Shown in pieces: positions 21,820 through 33,126 of a stretch of DNA of 64,000 nucleotides. Source of the stretch: Acetobacteroides hydrogenigenes (GTDB taxonomy: Bacteria > Bacteroidota > Bacteroidia > Bacteroidales > ZOR0009); contig NZ_SLWB01000004.1 of NCBI RefSeq assembly GCF_004340205.1, positions 124,001 through 188,000 on the forward strand. The letters run 5' to 3'. The notes beneath the pieces are model-generated. The model saw only the letters and a list, made by a program, of their open reading frames with translations, made no database searches and was not told the DNA's origin. How positions within the stretch are numbered: position 1 is the first letter of the stretch; each line of letters opens with the position of its first letter. The translations under genes were made by a program, and so were the position numbers.

Positions 21820-22641
21820 ATGGGTAAATGCTCATGTAAATCGAATGCAGCCGCCGATACCATTATTGAAGTAAAGAGCTGCGGATGTAAAAGTAAAAAC
21901 AAGAAAAAGCCATTACTACTCGTAAGCAACCCAATAGATGCAATGCAAATCACCAAACTGATAAGTGAAACTATTGAAGTAAATGTAGAGGAGATAGAAA
22001 AGCAGCATCAGGTGGTAAGGGTAGATGAACTACCTAATGCAACCTACATTCTAAGGCTCGAAAAGAAGGACGTAACATTTAGAAGTGGACAATATTTTTC
22101 GCTTAACATTCCGGGCGATATTCAGGCTCGCCACTACTCCATTTACAGTGGAGAAAACAACGAAACGCTAGACTTTCTTATAAAGGAGGTTGATGACGGA
22201 ATAGTATCCGTTAAGCTACATCATCTTAAACCCGGTGATAAGGTGCTTATTGAAGGACCTTGGGGCCACTTTAGGGTAAAACCTAACGACGTTGAATCTA
22301 AGAAGTTCCTTTTCATAGCATCGGGAACTGGAATATCGCCATTCCATAGCTTCATCAAGTCGCATCCGAACCTCGATTATAAGCTAATTCACGGGGTAAG
22401 AAACGGGAGCGACAGGTATGAGATGGAAGAATATCCAAAAGAAAGGTATGTTGCCTGTACCTCGCGTGACAAATCGGGAGATTTTTATGGAAGAGTCACC
22501 GATTACCTTAAAGCCAACCCAGTTGAGCAAGGTACGCTCTGCTACCTCTGCGGAAATAATCAGATGATTGAGGATGCTATTTCCATTCTTCAGTCGCAAG
22601 GAATAAAAGGTAGCGACATCTATACGGAAATATTCTTTTAG
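21820..22641 (+). CDS. Ferredoxin-NADP reductase-like flavoprotein with Cys-rich N-terminus
   Basis: 273 residues. The ferredoxin reductase FAD domain (FRSGQYFSLNIPG, then RHYSIYSGEN as the RxYS flavin motif) is followed by the NAD(P) domain (LFIASGTGISPFHSFI, LIHGVRN, LCGNNQMIEDA). An N-terminal tail carries CSCKS and SCGCKSKNKKK. Start set at ATG 21820, preceded by AGGAAAG; an in-frame ATG at 21781 overlaps the preceding terminator flank. No separate ferredoxin or P450 partner is adjacent. Role is unknown, probably electron transfer from NAD(P)H. Confidence 0.8.
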   Translation: MGKCSCKSNAAADTIIEVKSCGCKSKNKKKPLLLVSNPIDAMQITKLISETIEVNVEEIEKQHQVVRVDELPNATYILRLEKKDVTFRSGQYFSLNIPGDIQARHYSIYSGENNETLDFLIKEVDDGIVSVKLHHLKPGDKVLIEGPWGHFRVKPNDVESKKFLFIASGTGISPFHSFIKSHPNLDYKLIHGVRNGSDRYEMEEYPKERYVACTSRDKSGDFYGRVTDYLKANPVEQGTLCYLCGNNQMIEDAISILQSQGIKGSDIYTEIFF

Positions 22642-22666: not shown

Positions 22667-22706
22667 AGGCGAAGAGGTTCTCATAGACCTTTTCGCCTCT
22701 TTCTTT
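22667..22706 (+). terminator. Terminator after the flavoprotein gene
   Basis: Imperfect stem AGGCGAAGAGGT / ACCTTTTCGCCT with loop TCTCATAG, then CTTTCTTT. It separates the flavoprotein from the pheA leader region. Confidence 0.75.
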
Positions 22707-22945
22707 CTATAAGAATTCATTCTTACAAAATATTTGATTAAAGGTTTATCTTCTTCTAATTTGAAACCTAGCCATTCTTTAAAGTTTATCGCAAGTAACA
22801 ATACCCCAAAAACACATCCTTTTTAGTAGTTCACAAGAATCTTACAGCAATCTATTTACCGTTAAGGATGGTTATAAAACAACGCATAACCGAACATCGG
22901 TAAGCAGAAACAACTAATATTGCATTCGTCAAAACAAACAAAGAG

Positions 22946-23035
22946 ATGAAGTCCCTACAAGTAACAAATTGGTTTTACTTTTTTTATTACTTCTTTTTTT
23001 ACGAAAGAGGGGGCTTGACTATTGCGCGAATGTAA
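22946..23035 (+). CDS. Leader peptide 1 of the pheA region (Phe-biased)
   Basis: A 29-residue peptide beginning at ATG 22946 (preceded by AAAGAG). Residues 9-19 read WFYFFYYFFFY: six Phe, four Tyr and one Trp in eleven codons. ERGGLTIARM and a TAA stop follow. Such a run just before an intrinsic terminator, upstream of prephenate dehydratase, is the hallmark of a Phe/Tyr ribosome-stalling attenuator. The segment GGGGCTTG (23010-23017), within codons 22-24, can pair with the terminator's left arm. The peptide itself probably has no further function. Confidence 0.88.
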   Translation: MKSLQVTNWFYFFYYFFFYERGGLTIARM

Positions 23036-23083
23036 ACAACAACACGAGAATAGACGAGCCCCAGAAATGGGGCTCTTTTTTTT
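23010..23083 (+). terminator. Attenuator 1: terminator with competing antiterminator
   Basis: Terminator: GAGCCCC (23056-23062), loop AGAAAT, GGGGCTC (23069-23075), then eight T. Antiterminator: GGGGCTTG (23010-23017) pairs with CGAGCCCC (23055-23062), eight pairs including one G-U, and would destroy the terminator. The antiterminator arm starts 8 nt after the last Tyr codon of leader 1. It stays free when a ribosome stalls in the Phe/Tyr run and is covered when the ribosome reaches the stop. Confidence 0.85.
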
Positions 23084-23097
23084 ACCATAATATCAGA

Positions 23098-23229
23098 ATG
23101 AAAACAGCACACACCATAGAAACAACGAGGGCAGAGCAGCAGATGCGGTTACGTTCGCTATTTAGCGCTTCGTATCTCTACTTTTTCTATTACTACTGGG
23201 AAAAGCGGGGGTTTTTATGTGCGTACTAG
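23098..23229 (+). CDS. Leader peptide 2 of the pheA region (Tyr-biased)
   Basis: A 43-residue peptide from ATG 23098, or 28 residues if translation starts at the in-frame ATG 23143 (similar in size to leader 1). It contains SYLYFFYYYWEKRG: five Tyr, two Phe and one Trp, then a final Tyr codon directly before TAG. It begins 15 bp after terminator 1, and the layout of leader 1 is repeated: aromatic run, Glu and basic residues, G-rich antiterminator arm, short spacer, terminator. This is evidence for a duplicated or stacked attenuator. Confidence 0.85.
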   Translation: MKTAHTIETTRAEQQMRLRSLFSASYLYFFYYYWEKRGFLCAY

Positions 23230-23283
23230 ATTGTATACGACAACAACGAACATAAAGGCCCCATCACAAATGGGGCCTTTTTT
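23208..23283 (+). terminator. Attenuator 2: terminator with competing antiterminator
   Basis: Terminator: AAAGGCCCCA (23254-23263), loop TCACAAA, TGGGGCCTTT (23271-23280), then TTT. Antiterminator: GGGGTTTTTATG (23208-23219) pairs with the segment 23251-23262 through twelve consecutive pairs, two of them G-U. The arm begins 12 nt after the last Tyr codon of the run (codon 33). pheA starts 27 bp after the terminator. Confidence 0.85.
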
Positions 23284-23309: not shown

Positions 23310-24161
23310 ATGACACTAGAGTACGAATCGCCATTGAGAGTAGCCATACAGGGAGTAAGAGGAGCTTTCCACGAGATTGCCGCAAGAGAAACCCTTGGTA
23401 ACGATATCATCCCTGTAGAGTGCCTAACATTCCGCGAGCTGGTTGCTGCAACCGAATCGGAAAAGGTTGATGCCGCTCTTATGGCCATCGAAAACTCCGT
23501 TGCAGGAGGTATCCTTCCAAACTACGCGCTGCTCCGCAACTCGGAGCTACAGATTGTTGGCGAGGTTTACCTGCGCATCGTACAGAACTTGCTAGCCCTA
23601 CCGGGCGAAACCTTAGAGTCCATAAAAGAGGTGGAATCGCACCCCATGGCCATACAGCAGTGTACCGATTTCTTGGGAGAGCATCCCGAGTGGAAGATCA
23701 TCGAGTCGGAAGATACCGCCCTTAGCGCACGTAAGATATCGGAGGGTGAAATCAGAGGGAAGGCGGCCATTGGCTCGTCGCTGGCTGCCGAGCTGTTCGG
23801 GCTTAACATCCTTGCTCCCGAAATAGAATCGAACAAGGAGAACTACACCCGTTTCCTCATCCTTACAAAAAAGGATGGAAAGATACGCAACACCACCTCC
23901 AACAAGGCAAGCATCTGCTTTTCGGCCAAGCACGAGCCTGGTGCGCTGGCAGCCATCCTCAAGGACATTGCCGACTGCGGCGTAGACCTTACCATGCTCC
24001 ACTCGCTCCCCAAGGTTGGGGCAAAGTGGGAGTACATCTTCCATGCCGACCTTGTGTACGATAGCTACATGCAGTACCTACAGGCCGTTAAGACGCTCAA
24101 CGAAACAGCCACCTACTTTAAGGTGCTGGGCGAATACCAAGCTGGATCAGAAATATTTTAA
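23310..24161 (+). CDS. pheA: Prephenate dehydratase
   Basis: Converts prephenate to phenylpyruvate in phenylalanine synthesis. 283 residues: a type-2 periplasmic-binding-like catalytic domain (VAIQGVRGAFHEIAA, MAIENSVAGGI, HPMAIQQC, ENYTRFLIL with the catalytic Thr-Arg-Phe) and a C-terminal ACT domain (HEPGALAAILKDIA, LHSLP) for feedback by Phe. No fused chorismate mutase; that activity sits on aroF. It is the first structural gene behind the two attenuators. Confidence 0.95.
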   Translation: MTLEYESPLRVAIQGVRGAFHEIAARETLGNDIIPVECLTFRELVAATESEKVDAALMAIENSVAGGILPNYALLRNSELQIVGEVYLRIVQNLLALPGETLESIKEVESHPMAIQQCTDFLGEHPEWKIIESEDTALSARKISEGEIRGKAAIGSSLAAELFGLNILAPEIESNKENYTRFLILTKKDGKIRNTTSNKASICFSAKHEPGALAAILKDIADCGVDLTMLHSLPKVGAKWEYIFHADLVYDSYMQYLQAVKTLNETATYFKVLGEYQAGSEIF

Positions 24162-24182
24162 TTTATAAGCAATAGCAATACC

Positions 24183-25352
24183 ATGCACGTAAAACCATCG
24201 AGTAGAATTGGGAAGGTAAGCGAGTACTACTTCTCGAAGAAGCTAAAGGAGATTGACCAGATGAGGGCCAACGGCACGAAGGTCATCAACCTAGGCATTG
24301 GCAACCCCGACCTGCAGCCATCGACCGCAATGGTTGAGGGCGTTTGTGAAACCAGCCGAAAGAGCGGTGTTCACGGCTACCAGAGCTACATTGGCAGCCC
24401 CATTCTTCGCCAGGCTTTTGCCGATTTCTACCACCGATATTACGGCGTGACGCTAAACCCAGCCAACGAGATTCTTCCACTAACGGGATCGAAGGAGGGC
24501 ATCATGCACATCTCCATGGCCTTCCTCGACGAGGGCGATGAGGTGCTGGTTCCCAACCCTGGCTACCCCACCTACACCTCGGCAACCAAGCTGGCAGGCG
24601 GTATCCCGGTGGAGTACAACCTTACCGAGGAGAACGGGTTTCACCCCAACTTCGAGGAGATAGAGCAGCGCGATCTTTCAAAAGTAAAGATAATGTGGGT
24701 GAACTACCCCCACATGCCAACGGGCGCAAAGGCTACGAGGGAGCTGTTCGAGCAGCTGGTGGCGTTCGGCAGAAAGCACCAAATCCTCATCTGCCACGAC
24801 AACCCCTACAGCTTCATCCTAAACAAGGAGCCGCTAAGCCTGATGGCCGTTGAAGGAGCCAAAGAGGTGGCGCTGGAGCTCAACTCGCTGAGCAAGTCGC
24901 ACAACATGGCCGGATGGCGCGTGGGGATGCTGGCTGGCAGCGCCGAGCACCTCAGCGCGGTGCTCACCTTTAAGAGCAACATGGACTCGGGGATGGCCCT
25001 ACCCATACAGATGGCCGCTGCTGCTGCACTGAGCGCCGATCAGGATTGGTTCGACAGCATCAATGCCGAGTACGCCAAAAGGCTGGTGCTAGCCGAGGAT
25101 ATTGCCCGAAAGATAGGCTGCAAGCTGCCCAAGGAACATTCGGGGATGTTTCTCTGGATAAAAATCCCCGACAGCGTGGAGAGCGCCGAGGCGATGGCCG
25201 ACAAGATCCTCTACCAAAAGGGCATCTTCATCACGCCGGGGTCGATCTTCGGATCGAACGGCAGCCGATTCCTGCGCATCTCGCTCTGCGCTGATAAGGC
25301 AACCTTAAAGGAGGCCGCCGATATACTTAGCACGTATAAGCTAGAGGAATAG
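24183..25352 (+). CDS. Class I/II PLP aminotransferase (putative aromatic aminotransferase)
   Basis: 389 residues, fold type I. Visible: NLGIGNPDLQPS, LTGSKEGIMHI, the NYPHMPTGAKA loop, HDNPYSFI and the PLP lysine in LNSLSKSHNMAGWRVG; the C-terminal RFLRISLC holds the carboxylate-binding Arg. The family includes LL-diaminopimelate and aromatic aminotransferases. Its place between pheA and tyrA argues that it transaminates phenylpyruvate and/or hydroxyphenylpyruvate (inference). It starts 21 bp after pheA. Confidence 0.88.
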   Translation: MHVKPSSRIGKVSEYYFSKKLKEIDQMRANGTKVINLGIGNPDLQPSTAMVEGVCETSRKSGVHGYQSYIGSPILRQAFADFYHRYYGVTLNPANEILPLTGSKEGIMHISMAFLDEGDEVLVPNPGYPTYTSATKLAGGIPVEYNLTEENGFHPNFEEIEQRDLSKVKIMWVNYPHMPTGAKATRELFEQLVAFGRKHQILICHDNPYSFILNKEPLSLMAVEGAKEVALELNSLSKSHNMAGWRVGMLAGSAEHLSAVLTFKSNMDSGMALPIQMAAAAALSADQDWFDSINAEYAKRLVLAEDIARKIGCKLPKEHSGMFLWIKIPDSVESAEAMADKILYQKGIFITPGSIFGSNGSRFLRISLCADKATLKEAADILSTYKLEE

Positions 25353-25382
25353 TAGTACAGAAGTGTTCTTATAACCGCACAA

Positions 25383-25514
25383 AGTTATATCAACGCGACT
25401 CCCCTCCTTTTTAAGGAGGGGTCAGCGCAGCCGGGGGTGGTTGACTCTCGAAATTATAAATTGACCAACCACCCCGCCCTACGGGCACCCCTCCTTGAGA
25501 AGGAGGGGAATCGC
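25383..25514. repeat. BIME-like pair of palindromic units, copy B
   Basis: The left unit contains CCCCTCCTT-TTT-AAGGAGGGG and ends in GCCGGGGGTGGTTG. After about 22 bp, the right unit reads CAACCACCCCGCCC, then CCCCTCCTTGAGAAGGAGGGG and ATCGC. These are the units seen at 7545-7728, in the opposite order. The element sits inside the pheA-tyrA operon, between aminotransferase and tyrA. Confidence 0.75.
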
Positions 25515-25583
25515 CCTGAACAGGCATTGCAGGAAATTAAAAGTCGCCATTCTTTGAATTACGACTTCAAAAAGAAAACAAGA

Positions 25584-26429
25584 ATGAACATTACCATTAT
25601 AGGACTAGGCTTAATTGGAGGATCGATGGCCCTCGACTTTAAGCACATGGGGCATCGGGTGCTAGGCGTCGATGCCAACCCCTTTCACCAGCGCGAGGCC
25701 ATGGACCTTGGGCTGGTGGAGCAATGCCTACCGCTCGATCAGGCCGTGGCGCAGTCGGACGTGGTGGTGGTTGCCGTACCCGTAGGGGCAACACCAGCCG
25801 TTATTAAGGAAGCGCTGCAGCATCTTCCAGCAAATGGCGTTATCTTTGATGTTGGCTCGACCAAAAAAAGTATCTGCAAGGCGCTGGAAGGGCATCCACG
25901 ACGCGAGCGATTTGTTGCCGCCCACCCCATTGCAGGAACCGAGTACAGCGGACCATCGGCAGCGCACAGCGGCCTTTTCTACCGCAAGCTGGGCATCATC
26001 TGCGATAGGGAGAAGAGCGCCCCCGATGCTGTAGACTGCGTGGAGGACCTATTCGTGCAGCTGGGCATGGAGCTCAAGCGCATCGACTCCGACGAGCACG
26101 ACAAGCACCTAGCCTACGTCTCGCACATCTCGCACCTATCGTCGTTTACGCTGGGGCTAACGGTGCTCGACATCGAGAAGGACGAGCGCTCGATCTTCGA
26201 CATGGCCGGCAGCGGTTTCGCCTCGACGGTTCGACTGGCAAAGAGCTCGCCCGAGATGTGGGCGCCCATCATGCTCGAAAACTCGGAGCACCTGCTGGAG
26301 GCGCTCGACAGCTACATCGACAACCTCAACAAGTTTAAGGAGCGCATCCTTAACCGCGACGAGGAGGGGCTAAAGGAACTGATGCGCGAGGCCAACCGAA
26401 TTAGGGGGGTACTGGAGAAGAGGAGTTAA
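25584..26429 (+). CDS. tyrA: Prephenate dehydrogenase
   Basis: Oxidises prephenate to 4-hydroxyphenylpyruvate for tyrosine. 281 residues. NAD motif IIGLGLIGGSMALDF, the HPIAGTEYSGP active-site loop with catalytic His, and HLAYVSHISHLSSF. No ACT domain and no fused mutase. I chose the ATG at 25584, since the longer open frame from 25437 runs through the BIME-like element. The stop codon (26427-26429) lies inside the first unit of an 11-bp tandem repeat. Confidence 0.93.
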   Translation: MNITIIGLGLIGGSMALDFKHMGHRVLGVDANPFHQREAMDLGLVEQCLPLDQAVAQSDVVVVAVPVGATPAVIKEALQHLPANGVIFDVGSTKKSICKALEGHPRRERFVAAHPIAGTEYSGPSAAHSGLFYRKLGIICDREKSAPDAVDCVEDLFVQLGMELKRIDSDEHDKHLAYVSHISHLSSFTLGLTVLDIEKDERSIFDMAGSGFASTVRLAKSSPEMWAPIMLENSEHLLEALDSYIDNLNKFKERILNRDEEGLKELMREANRIRGVLEKRS

Positions 26430-26492
26430 ACGGAAGTTAAACGGAAGTTAAACGGAAGTTATACCGAAGTTATTCGGGAGTTAAACGGAAGT
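26425..26492. repeat. 11-bp tandem repeat at the tyrA stop codon
   Basis: Six units of GTTAAACGGAA begin at 26425, 26436, 26447, 26458, 26469 and 26480; two are diverged (GTTATACCGAA, GTTATTCGGGA). The array contains the tyrA stop. The flank downstream (GTGGAGCAAAGCGACATCCCGCC) resembles 57822-57844 after the alkaline phosphatase gene, so a small dispersed sequence is attached. Confidence 0.85.
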
Positions 26493-26587
26493 GGAGCAAA
26501 GCGACATCCCGCCTTAGCGGGGAAGTTAGACAAAGAGAATTTCAGAAGCAGTCACTTTGAGAATCTAGGCTGATACGCAGGATTTAC

Positions 26588-26616
26588 GTAGAGACGTTGC
26601 ACTGCAATGTCTCTAC
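26588..26616. repeat. Dispersed palindrome of the GTAGAGAC type
   Basis: GTAGAGACGTTGCA, then C, then TGCAATGTCTCTAC: a near-perfect inverted repeat. A relative, GACGCGATAAATCGCGTC followed by TCTAC, lies at 47064-47085. AAACCTGACAGGTTT, a third dispersed palindrome, follows at 26626-26640. Confidence 0.65.
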
Positions 26617-26645
26617 CTTTCGGCTAAACCTGACAGGTTTACGAC

Positions 26646-26882
26646 CCAAAGATTGGCTCACCGGAGCATAAGATTACTCCACCGGAGCTAAGATTGGCTC
26701 GCCCAGTCGTAAGATTGCTTCACCGGGCGTAAGATTTGTCCGCCGAGTCGTAAGATTGCTTCGCCGAACCATAAGATTGCTCTGCCGAACGTAAGATTTG
26801 CTCACCGGGTTGTAAGATTGGGCTACCGGACTTGAGGAAATATCGCTGGAGCTGAGGAAGCGTCGCCGGACTTGATGCTAAA
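26646..26882. repeat. 20-21-bp degenerate tandem repeat (about 11 units)
   Basis: Units are variations of TAAGATTGCTTCGCCGAACCG, each 20 or 21 bp long. The word TAAGATT is constant and the rest alternates among related words (CTCACCGGAGC, CTTCACCGGGC, CTCTGCCGAAC). The last units change to TGAGGAAGCGTCGCCGGACT. Located between tyrA and aroF. Confidence 0.85.
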
Positions 26883-26953
26883 CCTGACAGGTTTTGAAAA
26901 CCTGTCAGGTTTACGCGAAGACATCTAGCATCTAACGTCTAATATCTAGAGTC
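26880..26953. repeat. AACCTGACAGGTT hairpin and TTAGAC-type string
   Basis: AAACCTGACAGGTTTT-GA-AAACCTGTCAGGTTT (26880-26912) is a large inverted repeat; the same unit occurs at 60101-60135. ATCTAGCATCTAACG, TCTAATATCTAGAGTC follow (26926-26953), the complement of the TTAGAC string seen elsewhere. The hairpin might act as a terminator, although no T run follows. Confidence 0.65.
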
Positions 26954-26990
26954 TTAAAAAAGTAACGAAACAAAACAAAAACATCATACA

Positions 26991-28085
26991 ATGGCAGCAA
27001 ACGAGCTTAAAGATTTGATTCCGATGTCGGAATGGTTACCAGGAATCAAGAGACCGCTAATTATCGCAGGACCTTGCAGCGCCGAGAGTCCCGAACAGCT
27101 GATGCAAACCGCCAAGGAGATTAAAGTCCTTGGCCAGGTAGACATCTTCCGCGCAGGCATCTGGAAGCCCCGCACCTTCCCCAACAACTTCGAGGGAGTG
27201 GGCAGCATCGGCTTAGAGTGGCTTCGCGAGGTAAAGAAGGAGACCGGCATGCCCGTGGCCACCGAGGTAGGCTCGGTGAAGCACGTGTTCGAGGCCATCA
27301 AGTACGGCGTCGACCTCATCTGGATTGGCGCCCGCACCACGGCCAACCCCTTCGCCATGCAGGAGATCGCCGAGGCGCTTCAGGGCGTCGACATCCCCGT
27401 GCTGGTAAAGAACCCGCTTAGCCCCGACCTCGAGCTGTGGGATGGAGGTATCAACCGTATCTACGCGGCTGGCATCCGCAAGCTGGGCGCCATCCACCGC
27501 GGCTTCTCCACTTGGGGCAAGAGCGACCTGCGCAACACCCCACACTGGCAGGTGCCCATCGAGCTGAAGCGCATCCACCCGAATCTCCCCATCATTGGCG
27601 ACCCCAGCCACATCTGCGGAAACCGCACCATGATTGCCGACATCGCGCAGCGCGCCATGGATTTCAACCTTGATGGGTTGATGATCGAGAGCCATTGCAA
27701 CCCCGACGAGGCATGGAGCGACGCCAAGCAGCAGGTTACCCCTACCCGACTGGGTGAAATCCTCAGCGGTTTGAAGATAAAAACCGAGCACACCAGCGAT
27801 GAGAAATTTATTCGTACCTTAGATGAGCTCCGCTCGCAGATCGACATGTACGACGACCAGATACTAAACATCCTGGAAGCCCGCATGAAGATCGCCGAGA
27901 AGATCGGTCTCTGCAAGAAGGAAAACAACGTGAGCATCCTGCAGACGGCCCGTTGGAGCGACATCATCAACAAGATGGTTGAGAAGGGGGCTGGCAAGGG
28001 ATTAAGCGATAAGTGTATCTCCGAAATCTTCCAGTCGATCCACGAGGAGTCCATCAACCATCAGATTAACGTAACCAGAGACTAA
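26991..28085 (+). CDS. aroF: Bifunctional DAHP synthase / chorismate mutase (AroQ type)
   Basis: First step of the shikimate pathway fused to chorismate mutase. Residues 1-260 form a type I-beta-like DAHP synthase (IIAGPCSAESPEQL, FRAGIWKPRTFPNNF, WIGARTTANPF, LVKNPLSPDLELW, DPSHICGNR). Residues 275-355 form an all-helical AroQ mutase (LRSQIDMYDDQILNILEARM, KIAEKIGLCKKEN). The mutase domain may serve as an allosteric sensor of prephenate, as in related fusions (known for the family, not shown here). It lies 561 bp after tyrA; whether it has its own promoter is unclear. Confidence 0.94.
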   Translation: MAANELKDLIPMSEWLPGIKRPLIIAGPCSAESPEQLMQTAKEIKVLGQVDIFRAGIWKPRTFPNNFEGVGSIGLEWLREVKKETGMPVATEVGSVKHVFEAIKYGVDLIWIGARTTANPFAMQEIAEALQGVDIPVLVKNPLSPDLELWDGGINRIYAAGIRKLGAIHRGFSTWGKSDLRNTPHWQVPIELKRIHPNLPIIGDPSHICGNRTMIADIAQRAMDFNLDGLMIESHCNPDEAWSDAKQQVTPTRLGEILSGLKIKTEHTSDEKFIRTLDELRSQIDMYDDQILNILEARMKIAEKIGLCKKENNVSILQTARWSDIINKMVEKGAGKGLSDKCISEIFQSIHEESINHQINVTRD

Positions 28086-28091
28086 AGGAAA

Positions 28092-29129
28092 ATGGTAGAG
28101 GTAAAAGTTAAGGGCACCTACGCCGATTCGTCGATCCTTGTCGGCGAATCCATCACGAATATCGCCAAGCACCTCCCCTCGCAGGGGGTGTTTGTGCTAA
28201 CCGACGATAAGGTGAAGAGCCTTTACGGGAAACACTTCGAGGGCTACCCGACCTTTACCATCGGGCAGGGCGAGGGCAACAAGACGCTGCAAACGGTGGA
28301 GCAGATCTACCGCTGGCTGCTCGACAACGACGCCGACCGCAGCTCGTTTATCCTAGCCGTTGGCGGCGGCATCGTGTGCGACGTGGCGGGCTTCGTAGCC
28401 TCCACCTTCATGCGCGGCGTGCGCTTCGGCTTCGTTTCTACGACGCTTCTATCGCAGGTCGATGCCAGCGTTGGCGGCAAGAACGGGGTAAACCTCGAAG
28501 GCTTTAAGAATATCGTGGGATGCTTCAACCAGCCCGAGTTCGTGATCTGCGACCCGCAGATGCTCCTCACCCTCGACGAGCGCGACTACCGCAGCGGCCT
28601 TGCCGAGGTGGTTAAGCACACCCTCATTGCCGATGCCGCGATGTTCACCTATATCGAGCAGAACAGCGACAAGCTGCTGGCCCGCGACGCCGAGGCCATC
28701 AACCGCGTAGTGGAGAACTCAGTTCGCATAAAGGCTAATATTGTGTCGATGGATGAGCGCGAAAAGGGCGAACGCCGCAAGCTCAACCTCGGGCACACCT
28801 GGGGGCATGCCGTCGAGAAGCTCACCCACCTGCCCCATGGCGAAGCGGTAAGCATCGGGATGATGTTCGCCGCGCAGCTGTCGGCGCAAAAAGGATTGAT
28901 GAGCGCCGACGAGGTGAAGCGGCTCAAGGCTCTGCTCGAAAAGCTGCAGTTGCCCACATCGGCATCGTTCGATAGGGCAACCGCCTTTACCTACATGCTA
29001 AAGGATAAGAAGAAGGAGAAATCTACCATTCACTTTGTGCTGATGGAGGGCATCGGCAGCACGCGCGTGGAGCCGCTTAGCACCACCGAGCTGCAGGATT
29101 GCTATAAAAAGATGGAGGCTGCGCTATGA
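28092..29129 (+). CDS. aroB: 3-dehydroquinate synthase
   Basis: NAD-dependent cyclisation of DAHP. 345 residues. VGGGIVCDVAGFVASTFMRG (NAD and phosphate binding), QVDASVGGKNGVNLEGFKN, the metal ligand RSGLAEVVKH, and the two His of LNLGHTWGHAVE with HGEAVSIGM. Starts 6 bp after aroF and overlaps aroD by 4 bases (ATGA). Confidence 0.96.
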   Translation: MVEVKVKGTYADSSILVGESITNIAKHLPSQGVFVLTDDKVKSLYGKHFEGYPTFTIGQGEGNKTLQTVEQIYRWLLDNDADRSSFILAVGGGIVCDVAGFVASTFMRGVRFGFVSTTLLSQVDASVGGKNGVNLEGFKNIVGCFNQPEFVICDPQMLLTLDERDYRSGLAEVVKHTLIADAAMFTYIEQNSDKLLARDAEAINRVVENSVRIKANIVSMDEREKGERRKLNLGHTWGHAVEKLTHLPHGEAVSIGMMFAAQLSAQKGLMSADEVKRLKALLEKLQLPTSASFDRATAFTYMLKDKKKEKSTIHFVLMEGIGSTRVEPLSTTELQDCYKKMEAAL

Positions 29130-29767
29130 TCTGCATCAGCTACGGAAGCATCGCCCTAAACGAGCTACTCGAAAGGCTAAAGGCCACCCAGATGGCCGAG
29201 ATCCGCATCGACCTGCTGGGGCTTACCAAGGATGAGGTAGCCGCGGTATTCCGCTCGCACCCCAACCTCATCGCCACCTGTCGCCCCGACACGATGGGCA
29301 TAGAGGCACAGCGCGAGCTGCTGCTAACCGCCATCGAAAGTGGTGCAGCCTACGTTGACATGGAGGTGGAGGCGCCATCTTCTTTCAAAAAGGAGATGGT
29401 GGAGGGAGCTCACGCCAAGGGTTGCAAGGTTATCGTATCGTACCACAACTACACCGACACGCCCGACAAGGAAACCCTGCAGAGCATGATGGTGGAGATG
29501 ATGGACGATGGTGCCGACATCCTGAAGCTGGCAACCATGGCCAACAGCGCTGCCGATGCGGCGCGCATCCTATCGCTCTACGAGAATCCGATAAAGCCGA
29601 TGGTAGCACTGGCAATGGGCGAAGCAGGAAAGGTAACCCGTGTGGCAATCCCGTTACTGGGAGCGCCATTTACCTTTGCGGCTCCCGAAGGGGCAGCCAC
29701 CGCACCCGGTCAGTTAACCAATACCGAAATGGAGATCATCTATAATGCTATAGGCCATGAAGAGTAA
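29126..29767 (+). CDS. aroD: 3-dehydroquinate dehydratase, type I
   Basis: 213 residues. Schiff-base-forming class I enzyme: AEIRIDLLGL, IATCRPDT, the catalytic His in VIVSYHNYTDTP, the lysine in DILKLATMANS and a late substrate loop GAPFTFA. Somewhat shorter than the 250-residue enterobacterial enzyme. Its 3' end overlaps aroE by 11 bases. The class I type is worth noting because many bacteria use the unrelated class II enzyme. Confidence 0.93.
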   Translation: MICISYGSIALNELLERLKATQMAEIRIDLLGLTKDEVAAVFRSHPNLIATCRPDTMGIEAQRELLLTAIESGAAYVDMEVEAPSSFKKEMVEGAHAKGCKVIVSYHNYTDTPDKETLQSMMVEMMDDGADILKLATMANSAADAARILSLYENPIKPMVALAMGEAGKVTRVAIPLLGAPFTFAAPEGAATAPGQLTNTEMEIIYNAIGHEE

Positions 29768-30728
29768 GCTGTTGGCCGTTTTTGGCAACCCCATCCTACA
29801 CAGCAAAAGTCCGCTGATGTTTAACGCGCTCTTAGGCGACAGCGGCTTATATACGCGTATCAGGGTGCAGTCGGGCAAAGATGTTGCCGAGGCAGCACGC
29901 CACCTGAACCTTGCCGGGGCCAATATCACCGCACCCTTTAAGGAGGAGGTTCTTCCTTTTGTTGATGAGCAATCGGAGGAGGTATCGCTAATTGGCGGCG
30001 CCAACACGCTTGTCAACAACAGCGGTCGCCTTACCGCCTACAACACCGACTGGTACGGCGCAACGCAGGCCATTAAGCAGAGCGGGCTATCTTTAAAAGG
30101 ATTGAAAGTGGTACTTCTCGGGTTGGGCGGAGCCGGAAAAGCTGTTGCCTATGGTCTAGTAAAAGAAGGTGCCGATGTTACCCTTGTAAACCGGACAGCA
30201 TCAAAGGCTGTAGAGGTATCGCGCAAGCTAGGCTGCAGAATGGGAAGGTTAGAAGAGCTGCCAATACTCATTGCCGATGCAGAACTATTCGTATCAGTGC
30301 TAATACCTTCGGCAAAGATTCCAATCAACCATCTACCTAAAGGGCTTTGGGTGTTCGACGCCAACTACCACGCATCGGCGCTGGTAGAGATGGCAAAAAA
30401 GAACGGCAATCCAATAGTAGACGGTAGCCAGTGGCTGCTACATCAGGCGGTAAAGGCATACGAGCATATCTTTGGCACAACGCCATCGGTAGAGGTGATG
30501 GACCAAGCGCTGAAGCAACCCCGCAACACCAACATCAAGGCTGTAGCCATCTGCAACGTGGATGAACCGCAGCAAATCAGCGAAGAACTTTGGGCTGCAC
30601 CAAAACATAAAGCAGAAAGCATCATAAACCTACACCAACCCGACTTGGTGATTTACACCCCCACCTTGGGCACCAACGAGGTTGAAGAAATCTATAAAGA
30701 TGAAAGAAGTAAGGCCTTCGGAAGTTAA
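29757..30728 (+). CDS. aroE: Shikimate dehydrogenase with C-terminal extension
   Basis: Reduces 3-dehydroshikimate with NADPH. Substrate site FGNPILHSKSPLMFNALL with the catalytic Lys, GGANTLVNNSG with YNTDWYGA (Asn and Asp), and the nucleotide motif LGLGGAGKAVAYGL with VNRTASKA. The enzyme would end near residue 260 (GSQWLLHQAVKAYEHIFG). About 60 further residues follow (KAVAICNVDEPQQISEELW and PDLVIYTPTLGTNEV) with no recognised fold. The gene also overlaps aroA by 29 bases, a larger overlap than its neighbours. Confidence 0.9.
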   Translation: MKSKLLAVFGNPILHSKSPLMFNALLGDSGLYTRIRVQSGKDVAEAARHLNLAGANITAPFKEEVLPFVDEQSEEVSLIGGANTLVNNSGRLTAYNTDWYGATQAIKQSGLSLKGLKVVLLGLGGAGKAVAYGLVKEGADVTLVNRTASKAVEVSRKLGCRMGRLEELPILIADAELFVSVLIPSAKIPINHLPKGLWVFDANYHASALVEMAKKNGNPIVDGSQWLLHQAVKAYEHIFGTTPSVEVMDQALKQPRNTNIKAVAICNVDEPQQISEELWAAPKHKAESIINLHQPDLVIYTPTLGTNEVEEIYKDERSKAFGS

Positions 30729-31938
30729 GGGAACCGTATGCATCCCCGCATCAAAAAGCGTGGTGCAGCGTGCCGTGGCTGCGGCCATGCTGGCGCGGGG
30801 CACCTCCATCATCCATAACCCCAGCACCTGCAACGACTGCTTGGCGGCGCTCAACATGGCCCGTCAGCTGGGCGCAACGGTGGTTGAGGAGCCCAACAGG
30901 TGGACCATTACGGGTGATTTTCGTCCGAGCAGCACGGAGCTGTCATGCGGCGAAGCGGGCTTAAGCATCCGCATGTTCACCCCTATCGTTTCGACGTTGG
31001 CTACAAAGCAAACGCTAACAGGACATGGCTCGCTTACCACCCGTCCGATGGGCGGATTGGAGGAGGCCATCAACCAGCTAGGGGCAACGTGCCAAACCAC
31101 CAACGGGCTGCTTCCTATAACCGTTCAAGGACCAATGATGGGCGGTACAGCCAACATCGATGGATCACTAAGTTCACAAATACTTACCGGACTGCTAATG
31201 GCGGCCCCGCTTGCCAAGCAGGATGTAACCCTCAACGTAGCCAACCTCAAGAGCCGCCCCTACATCGATATAACCATTGAGGTGATGCTGCAGTTTGGCG
31301 TGGAGGTGGAGAATAACAGCTACCAGCACTTCCGCGTGAAGGCAAATCAACAGTACAAGCCCTACGAGCTTCGCGCCGAGGGCGATTGGAGCGGAGCGGC
31401 ATTCTTCCTGGTTGCAGGGGTAATTGCGGGTAAGCTACGGGTAGAAAATATATCGTCAGCCTCCAAGCAGGCAGATAAGGAGATTGTTACGGCAATTAAG
31501 CTGGCCGGAGGACGAATTACCGAGGGCAACGGCTTCTTCGAGGTGGAGAAATCACCACTAAAAGCCTTCTCGTTCGATGCCACCAACTGCCCCGACCTCT
31601 TCCCTCCGCTTGCCGTGCTGGCAGCAGCCTGCAAGGGAACAACGCTGCTTAAGGGCGTATCGCGCTTAACCCATAAGGAGAGCAACCGCGCTATGGCCAT
31701 CCAGAACGAATTTGCCAAGGCGGGCATCTCGGTGGTAATTGAGGGCGACGAGATGTACATCAAGGGAGCAACGCCCAAGTCCTGCACCATGGAGTCGTAC
31801 AACGACCACCGCATGGCGATGGCTGCGGCAACGCTGGCGCTTATCGCATCGGGACAGATTGGTATCACCACGCCGGAATGCGTTGCCAAATCGTATCCGG
31901 AGTTTTGGGAGCATCTGGAAAACGTGCTAGAACACTGA
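30700..31938 (+). CDS. aroA: 5-enolpyruvylshikimate-3-phosphate synthase
   Basis: Sixth step of the pathway. 412 residues with two inverse alpha/beta domains: PASKSVVQRAVAAAMLARG (substrate Lys-Ser), GEAGLSIRMFTPI, LTGHGSLTTRPMGGL, GDWSGAAFFLVAGV, ESNRAMAIQNEF, and YNDHRMAMAAA near the end. ATG 30700 is chosen; the upstream TTG at 30682 would extend the overlap with aroE. The N-terminal glycine-loop shows GLSIRM instead of the classic LGNAGTAMR, as in many Bacteroidetes enzymes; glyphosate sensitivity class not assessed. Confidence 0.94.
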   Translation: MKEVRPSEVKGTVCIPASKSVVQRAVAAAMLARGTSIIHNPSTCNDCLAALNMARQLGATVVEEPNRWTITGDFRPSSTELSCGEAGLSIRMFTPIVSTLATKQTLTGHGSLTTRPMGGLEEAINQLGATCQTTNGLLPITVQGPMMGGTANIDGSLSSQILTGLLMAAPLAKQDVTLNVANLKSRPYIDITIEVMLQFGVEVENNSYQHFRVKANQQYKPYELRAEGDWSGAAFFLVAGVIAGKLRVENISSASKQADKEIVTAIKLAGGRITEGNGFFEVEKSPLKAFSFDATNCPDLFPPLAVLAAACKGTTLLKGVSRLTHKESNRAMAIQNEFAKAGISVVIEGDEMYIKGATPKSCTMESYNDHRMAMAAATLALIASGQIGITTPECVAKSYPEFWEHLENVLEH

Positions 31939-32105
31939 TTTTACTGGTGAAGCTGATTTTTACAGATAATGTTTTAAACACAAAGGGCACAAAGGATAGC
32001 ACAAAGTGCATAAAGACTTTTATTCCTCATCTTTCAGTCGTGTGTCGTGATACTTGTGTCTTGTGTCTAAAATCTAACGTCTAATATCTAACATCTAAAA
32101 AAGAT
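31939..32105. repeat. Short spacer with TTAGAC-type string
   Basis: Between aroA and aroC. ACACAAAGGGCACAAAGGA and AGCACAAAGTGCATAAAG are near-repeats (31979-32017). Then TAAAATCTAACGTC, TAATATCTAACATC (32067-32098) repeats the dispersed string. No gene. Confidence 0.6.
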
Positions 32106-33086
32106 ATGAACTCATTTGGAAGACTTTTTAGGGTTACCATATTTGGCGAGTCGCACGGCGCCTCGGTGGGTATCAACATCGACGGATGCCCGGCGGGGAT
32201 TGCCCTCGCGGAGGCCGACCTGATGGCCGACCTTGCCCGCCGTAAGAGCGGCGCCAAGGGTACTACGCCCCGCAGCGAGGAGGATATGCCAGAAATCATC
32301 TCGGGCGTGTTCAACGGCCATACTACGGGTGCGCCCATCACCATCATATTCAGAAATACCAACACCATCTCCAAAGACTACTCGAACCTTGTAACCTCGC
32401 CCCGCCCAGGCCATGCGGACTACGTGGCGCAGGAGAAGTACAAGGGATACCAGGACTACCGCGGCGGTGGGCACTTCTCGGGGCGCGTTACCCTTGGCCT
32501 AGTTGCCGCAGGAGCTATCGCCAAGAAGATAGTTGAGGGCGTTACCATCAGCGCGAAGCTGCTATCGGTGGGCGGGCGTACCGACATCGATGCGGTGATC
32601 GACGAGGTGGTGGCGGCGCACGACTCGGTAGGGGGCGTGGTGGAGTGCCGCGCTACGGGGCTTCCCGTAGGCTGGGGCGAACCCTTCTTCGACTCGGTGG
32701 AGTCGGCCATATCGCACATCGTATTTGCCATACCCGCCACCAAGGGCATTGAGTTTGGCTCGGGCTTTGCCGCCGCCACGATGCGCGGCAGCGAGCATAA
32801 CGATGCAATCATCACCCCCGATGGAAGAACCTCGTCGAACAATGCGGGGGGCATCAACGGGGGCATCAGCAACGGGAACGAGCTGGTGTTTAGGGTAGCG
32901 ATAAAGCCAACATCGAGCATTGGGGTAGCGCAGCAGACCCTCAACCGCGAAACGGGCCAAGTGGAGGAACTGGTGATTAAGGGTCGCCACGACGCCTGTA
33001 TCGCCCTGCGCGTACCCGTGGTGCTCGAGGCCGCTACGGCTATCGCCCTTGCCGACCTTTTGCTCGTGGGCAAGGCTTACCGGTAG
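32106..33086 (+). CDS. aroC: Chorismate synthase
   Basis: FMN-dependent last step to chorismate. 326 residues, somewhat short. FGRLFRVTIFGESHG (signature 1 with the catalytic His), RPGHADYVAQEKY, FSGRVTLGLVAAG in the HFSGR region, MRGSEHNDAI, NNAGGINGGISNGNELVFRV (signature 3) and KGRHDACIALRVPVVLEA. It ends the aromatic cluster and is followed by a strong terminator. Shikimate kinase (aroK) is not in the window. Confidence 0.95.
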   Translation: MNSFGRLFRVTIFGESHGASVGINIDGCPAGIALAEADLMADLARRKSGAKGTTPRSEEDMPEIISGVFNGHTTGAPITIIFRNTNTISKDYSNLVTSPRPGHADYVAQEKYKGYQDYRGGGHFSGRVTLGLVAAGAIAKKIVEGVTISAKLLSVGGRTDIDAVIDEVVAAHDSVGGVVECRATGLPVGWGEPFFDSVESAISHIVFAIPATKGIEFGSGFAAATMRGSEHNDAIITPDGRTSSNNAGGINGGISNGNELVFRVAIKPTSSIGVAQQTLNRETGQVEELVIKGRHDACIALRVPVVLEAATAIALADLLLVGKAYR

Positions 33087-33126
33087 CACATTGTTGAAAT
33101 GCGTTTGAAACGCGTCTCAACAAATG

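Follow-up and report, generated by a model that had tools for sequence, protein, structure and literature searches.

A probable doubled attenuator precedes the aromatic operon

The window, that is, the whole 64 kb stretch of DNA that was analysed, carries a nine-gene aromatic operon running from pheA to aroC (23310–33089). Upstream of pheA lie two successive units, each consisting of a short leader ORF enriched in codons for the end-product amino acids of the operon and of an intrinsic terminator that sits between this ORF and pheA. The presence of a doubled Phe/Tyr attenuator upstream of pheA was confirmed, and its components are given below in order of position.

22667–22698, + strand: intrinsic terminator of the preceding gene, whose ORF ends at 22641 (terminator scan; 13-bp stem, T tail)
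22915–22922, + strand: probable promoter −7 element TAATATTG, 31 nt 5′ of leader 1 (promoter scan; 5/6 match to the Bacteroidota TAnnTTTG)
22946–23035, + strand: leader peptide 1 ORF, 29 codons (translation; kept in G001 and G002)
22970–23002, + strand: regulatory codon run 1, W F Y F F Y Y F F F Y (sequence)
23010–23023, + strand: antiterminator arm 1 (23010–23017 plus 23019–23023), pairing with 23049–23053 and 23055–23062
23056–23083, + strand: intrinsic terminator 1, 8-bp stem, T8 (terminator scan, fold)
23098–23229, + strand: leader peptide 2 ORF, 43 codons (translation; ATG position kept in the genus)
23173–23199, + strand: regulatory codon run 2, Y L Y F F Y Y Y W (sequence)
23208–23220, + strand: antiterminator arm 2, forming 13 uninterrupted pairs with 23250–23262
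23254–23283, + strand: intrinsic terminator 2, 11-bp stem, T tract (terminator scan, fold)
23310–24161, + strand: pheA, prephenate dehydratase, which opens the operon (NCBIfam, E 1.8e-56)
24183–33089, + strand: aminotransferase, tyrA, DAHP synthase/chorismate mutase, aroB, aroD, aroE, aroA and aroC (NCBIfam and translations)

The terminator of the preceding gene insulates the leader region from transcription further upstream. Leader 1 translates as MKSLQVTNWFYFFYYFFFYERGGLTIARM, with one Trp, six Phe and four Tyr across the eleven codons of its run; leader 2 translates as MKTAHTIETTRAEQQMRLRSLFSASYLYFFYYYWEKRGFLCAY and starts 15 nt 3′ of terminator 1. The terminator scan places the two terminators at 23056–23075 and 23254–23280, followed by T tracts. 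On re-reading of the sequence, the leader coordinates and codon counts of a first-pass annotation of this DNA proved correct, and its reading of the pheA upstream region as two serial attenuators was supported. On both strands of the window, at least 7 aromatic codons out of 10 together with a following terminator were found in only these two ORFs. No match was obtained when plasmids were searched. A shifted frame of leader 1 is also open through to the leader 2 stop (22969–23229, 86 codons), reading LFLLLLFL where leader 1 has its aromatic run, and is probably a by-product of the T-rich codons.

The operon spans a nearly complete route to Phe and Tyr, its genes being assigned by NCBIfam up to aroE and from translations for aroA and aroC. 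The gene order is identical in the sister genome G001 and in G185, and pheA heads an aromatic operon in nearly all relatives checked. A Trp codon is conserved in both leaders across the genus, which would fit an operon that also supplies chorismate to Trp. Directly 5′ of tyrA, an imperfect palindrome (25398–25520) with dozens of dispersed matches in both orientations in this genome represents a REP/MITE-like element; its Rfam match to mir-2545 was weak and surely spurious. The ORF predicted from GTG 25437 crosses this palindrome, and tyrA homology begins ~49 residues in. Between tyrA and the DAHP synthase gene lies a 560-nt insert (26430–26990) made of short dispersed repeats, for which 61 matches were found in the genome, the AACCTGACAGGTTT palindrome among them; in G001 the insert is absent and the two genes adjoin.

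Each antiterminator arm is matched to its own terminator

In unit 1, the helix 23010–23017/23055–23062 is extended by 23019–23023/23049–23053 to 13 pairs, and in unit 2 the helix 23208–23220/23250–23262 likewise comprises 13 pairs; the pairings described by the first-pass annotation are real, but the 8 and 12 pairs that it gave are too short. RNA folding of 23003–23062 yielded a z score of −5.5. With a ribosome placed on the run, unit 1 folded into the antiterminator form (−24.7 kcal/mol), and with the ribosome placed at the stop codon the terminator formed (−16.9); both terminators folded when no ribosome was included. In unit 2, the pairing of the arm with the terminator was modestly better than in shuffled sequences (p 0.035), and the terminator hairpin was more stable than the antiterminator at equilibrium, so that unit 2 could switch only kinetically, with the antiterminator forming before the terminator as the order of synthesis would permit.

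Over 99 units, the mean pairing energy of an arm with its own terminator was −13.6 kcal/mol, compared to −5.7 for shuffled sequences and −8.8 for the terminators of other genomes, and 93 of the units reached p ≤ 0.05. The arm starts a median of 11 nt (interquartile range 9–13) past the last aromatic codon, a spacing that fits the footprint of a stalled ribosome. By these pairing statistics and the footprint spacing, the mutually exclusive antiterminator is placed where a ribosome stalling on the run could affect it. The two mutually exclusive hairpin pairs proposed earlier for this locus are supported. Orthogonality was assayed in the 15 tandems whose two terminators were both found by the detector, and summed cognate pairings exceeded cross-pairings in all 15 (p 6e-5); in silico, the pairing of the two units is orthogonal. 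A column-wise covariation table is biased because each helix was picked as the best one, and the pairing claims rest instead on the shuffled and cross-genome controls and on the orthogonality test. A candidate protector hairpin, in which AAGUCCC at the beginning of leader 1 pairs with arm 1, appeared in the fold but is poorly kept in G001 and was set aside.

Aromatic leader units are conserved in Bacteroidales and repeatedly doubled

Conservation within the genus was assessed in three genomes, and the other two (G001 and G002) retain the leader, terminator and arm of each unit; sister locus L004 (opposite strand) carries both leaders. Changes in the aromatic runs within the genus are mostly synonymous, with one in-frame one-codon indel, and a G–C pair of arm 2 in this genome is replaced by A–U in both G001 and G002, a compensatory change. 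Across the order, an aromatic leader was found 5′ of pheA in 90 of the 97 Bacteroidales upstream regions, the leader sequences being otherwise unrelated. At least one leader-plus-terminator unit was detected in 84/97 pheA upstream regions, compared to 1/485 Markov-shuffled sequences and 0/97 reverse strands; these controls and the uniqueness within the window exclude chance. Relatives outside Bacteroidales in the same class mostly carry an aromatic leader unit too.

Two leaders with two terminators occur in 20 of the 97 Bacteroidales regions (~20%), distributed over 13 GTDB families, and two further tandem cases were found elsewhere in the class. This count combines the detector with reading by eye: both terminators were detected in 15 of the 20, and the second was missed in G070, G072, G090, G132 and G191. 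By eye, the first four of these show a hairpin and a T tract at the second terminator, and G191 was counted as a near copy of G090. The earlier description of the doubling as unusual holds for published leader-peptide tandems, of which few were found, but not for Bacteroidales pheA regions. When PheA from 115 sequences was placed on a maximum-likelihood tree, the tandem state required at least 13 changes, which indicates that the doubling was gained or lost many times; no significant link to operon length was found (p 0.24). Of two close relatives in one family, G070 is tandem and G174 single (L100, L103), and the one leader of G174 is similar to the distal unit of G070. This contrast is a candidate for a recent loss or gain.

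A proposed pair of attenuators reading one signal in series

A full 6/6 match to the −7 motif precedes the first leader in 70/90 cases in the order, compared to 5/90 shuffled sequences; in this genus the first promoter matches at 5/6 or less, with a weak −33 element. Two complete sensor-plus-terminator units were found at the locus, on what would be a single transcript. The observed features, comprising both units, their conservation, the paired alternatives, their orthogonality and no visible second promoter, very probably form two ribosome-mediated attenuators in series on one transcript, which would read the same signal and multiply termination to give a tighter and steeper switch.

According to this model, a single transcript would begin 5′ of leader 1 and then meet both attenuators. 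When charged tRNA-Phe and tRNA-Tyr are ample, the ribosome would pass the aromatic codons and cover the arm, so that the terminator could form and transcription would stop; when Phe or Tyr is short, the ribosome would stall in the run, the free arm would take the 5′ side of the terminator and RNA polymerase would continue. Ribosome stalling and read-through are proposed here by analogy with established attenuation. Polymerases leaking past terminator 1 would face terminator 2, which would answer to the same signal through a separate leader and arm, and in this way the leak would be multiplied down and the induction ratio raised. As illustrative arithmetic, with assumed read-through values of 0.1 and 0.8, one unit would give 8-fold and two units 64-fold induction. 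Since Phe and Tyr codons occur in both leaders, each leader should stall whenever one of the two amino acids runs short, and judging from the codons the logic is likely low Phe OR low Tyr, read twice, instead of low Phe AND low Tyr. The doubling would likely be of benefit by reducing the leak and steepening induction. Ribosome stalling as the sensor and two multiplying termination points, both put forward in the first-pass annotation, are a supported reading, and we infer both. To our knowledge, transcription–translation coupling is not established for these bacteria, which counts against the attenuation model, as do the weak −33 element in this genus and, for unit 2, the modest pairing and the more stable terminator.

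The first-pass annotation had further assigned a Phe bias to one leader and a Tyr bias to the other, whereby leader 1 would sense mainly Phe, leader 2 mainly Tyr, and full expression would need scarcity of both. The composition in this genome points that way, with 6F:4Y in run 1 and 2F:5Y in run 2, but leader 2 is 3F:4Y and 4F:4Y in the other two genus genomes, the Phe fraction over the 20 tandems is 0.56 in the distal and 0.60 in the proximal leaders (p = 0.23), and several codons of each amino acid in both leaders mean that either shortage should stall both. Neither leader is specific to one amino acid; both mix Phe and Tyr, the bias is weak in the sisters and absent across the tandems, and such an AND gate is very improbable. 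That each unit is complete alone would also suit an arrangement in which the two attenuators are transcribed from separate promoters and do not act in series. Against this, only ~15 nt separate the T tract of terminator 1 from the leader 2 ATG, the spacer after terminator 1 in tandems is often only 10–30 nt, and the promoter scan found no full −7 match before leader 2 in the 20 tandems, the best between-unit matches being 3–5 of 6 and in most cases lacking a −33 element, whereas first leaders mostly have 6/6; two separate promoters are highly improbable.

The second unit could instead be a redundant duplicate that arose by slippage or duplication and drifts neutrally with little regulatory effect, a reading that we regard as unlikely although it deserves weight. 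The frequent gains or losses on the PheA tree and the lack of a significant link to operon length are in its favor, as are the near-identical arms in some tandems (G216), but the genus and tandem clades such as G167/G062/G090/G191 keep both units intact, and what is kept comprises the open frame, the aromatic run, the terminator and the match of each arm to the terminator of its unit. An ordinary 5′ UTR structure with untranslated short ORFs, or an aromatic-binding riboswitch, would account for the folding of both terminators without a ribosome. On this reading, the aromatic runs would not be expected to change mostly by synonymous substitution and by an in-frame indel, to recur in 90/97 relatives whose sequence is otherwise unrelated, or to be followed by an arm at a near-constant distance, and no Rfam riboswitch reached threshold; the probability of this reading is close to negligible.

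Relation to known attenuators

The E. coli pheA attenuator (pheL; RF01859) is a single unit that responds to Phe only. It shares with the units here a leader peptide rich in Phe, an antiterminator and a terminator that exclude each other, and a position upstream of pheA, whereas the present leaders are mixed Phe/Tyr(/Trp) and doubled. The two units score 25.6 and 25.0 bits against Rfam Phe_leader RF01859, below the gathering cutoff of 55. In the Salmonella mgtCBR leader, two short ORFs each gate transcription with independent and additive effects (Lee and Groisman, 2012; PMC3641672); they sense ATP and proline, the stem-loops are unlike intrinsic terminators, and these tandem leader-peptide attenuators were termed a singular example in 2012 (PMC3641672). 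In contrast to the two signals of mgtCBR, a single signal would here be read by both units, in either case at an intrinsic terminator. Pseudo-cooperative tandem riboswitches (such as TPP, c-di-GMP) place two independent devices for the same signal at two successive termination decisions, and for tandem riboswitches with one ligand a steeper, more digital response is predicted (PMC9481103); the sensor proposed here differs in being a ribosome translating a leader peptide instead of an aptamer. Leader-peptide attenuation, including a structured 5′ element at pheA without an Rfam match, was reported for Flavobacterium psychrophilum, which also concerns amino-acid operons in Bacteroidota but in a different order, and the passage in question describes no doubling (PMC9723704).

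Within the literature searched, whose coverage left out most subscription journals, no tandem attenuator in Bacteroidota and no doubled same-signal ribosome-mediated attenuator recurring across an order was found. The single unit is a textbook leader-peptide attenuator, and what had no counterpart in that literature is the same-signal doubling with two intrinsic terminators. We favor, with some reserve, the view that this doubling is a recurrent Bacteroidales solution, gained and lost often, in which one Phe/Tyr signal would act twice by way of orthogonal antiterminators, and which would sharpen control as a leader-peptide counterpart of pseudo-cooperative tandem riboswitches. The same-signal tandem recurs in 13 families, and closely related genomes with one unit offer natural controls, which makes it testable whether serial attenuation steepens the response and whether transcription–translation coupling in Bacteroidota suffices for classical attenuation. 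The tandems and single units also provide matched antiterminator/terminator pairs in large number, and no Rfam family was found for them.

Other leaders in the same genome

Other 7-codon Phe/Tyr runs in this genome (L065, L070–L072) were attributed to chance, with no terminator or aromatic gene evident nearby. Single attenuators of like design precede trpE (WWW) and hisG (HHHHH), which speaks for the attenuation model at pheA. The trpE leader (L198:1240–1510) reads MNRSLQLSQAWWWRNKNLLC and then AAAGGGGCTCGCTTAACACAAGCGAGCCCCTTTT, forming a single Trp attenuator, and upstream of hisG (L201) a single His leader, MKLFNLHHHHHAACHRVWV, is followed by a terminator.
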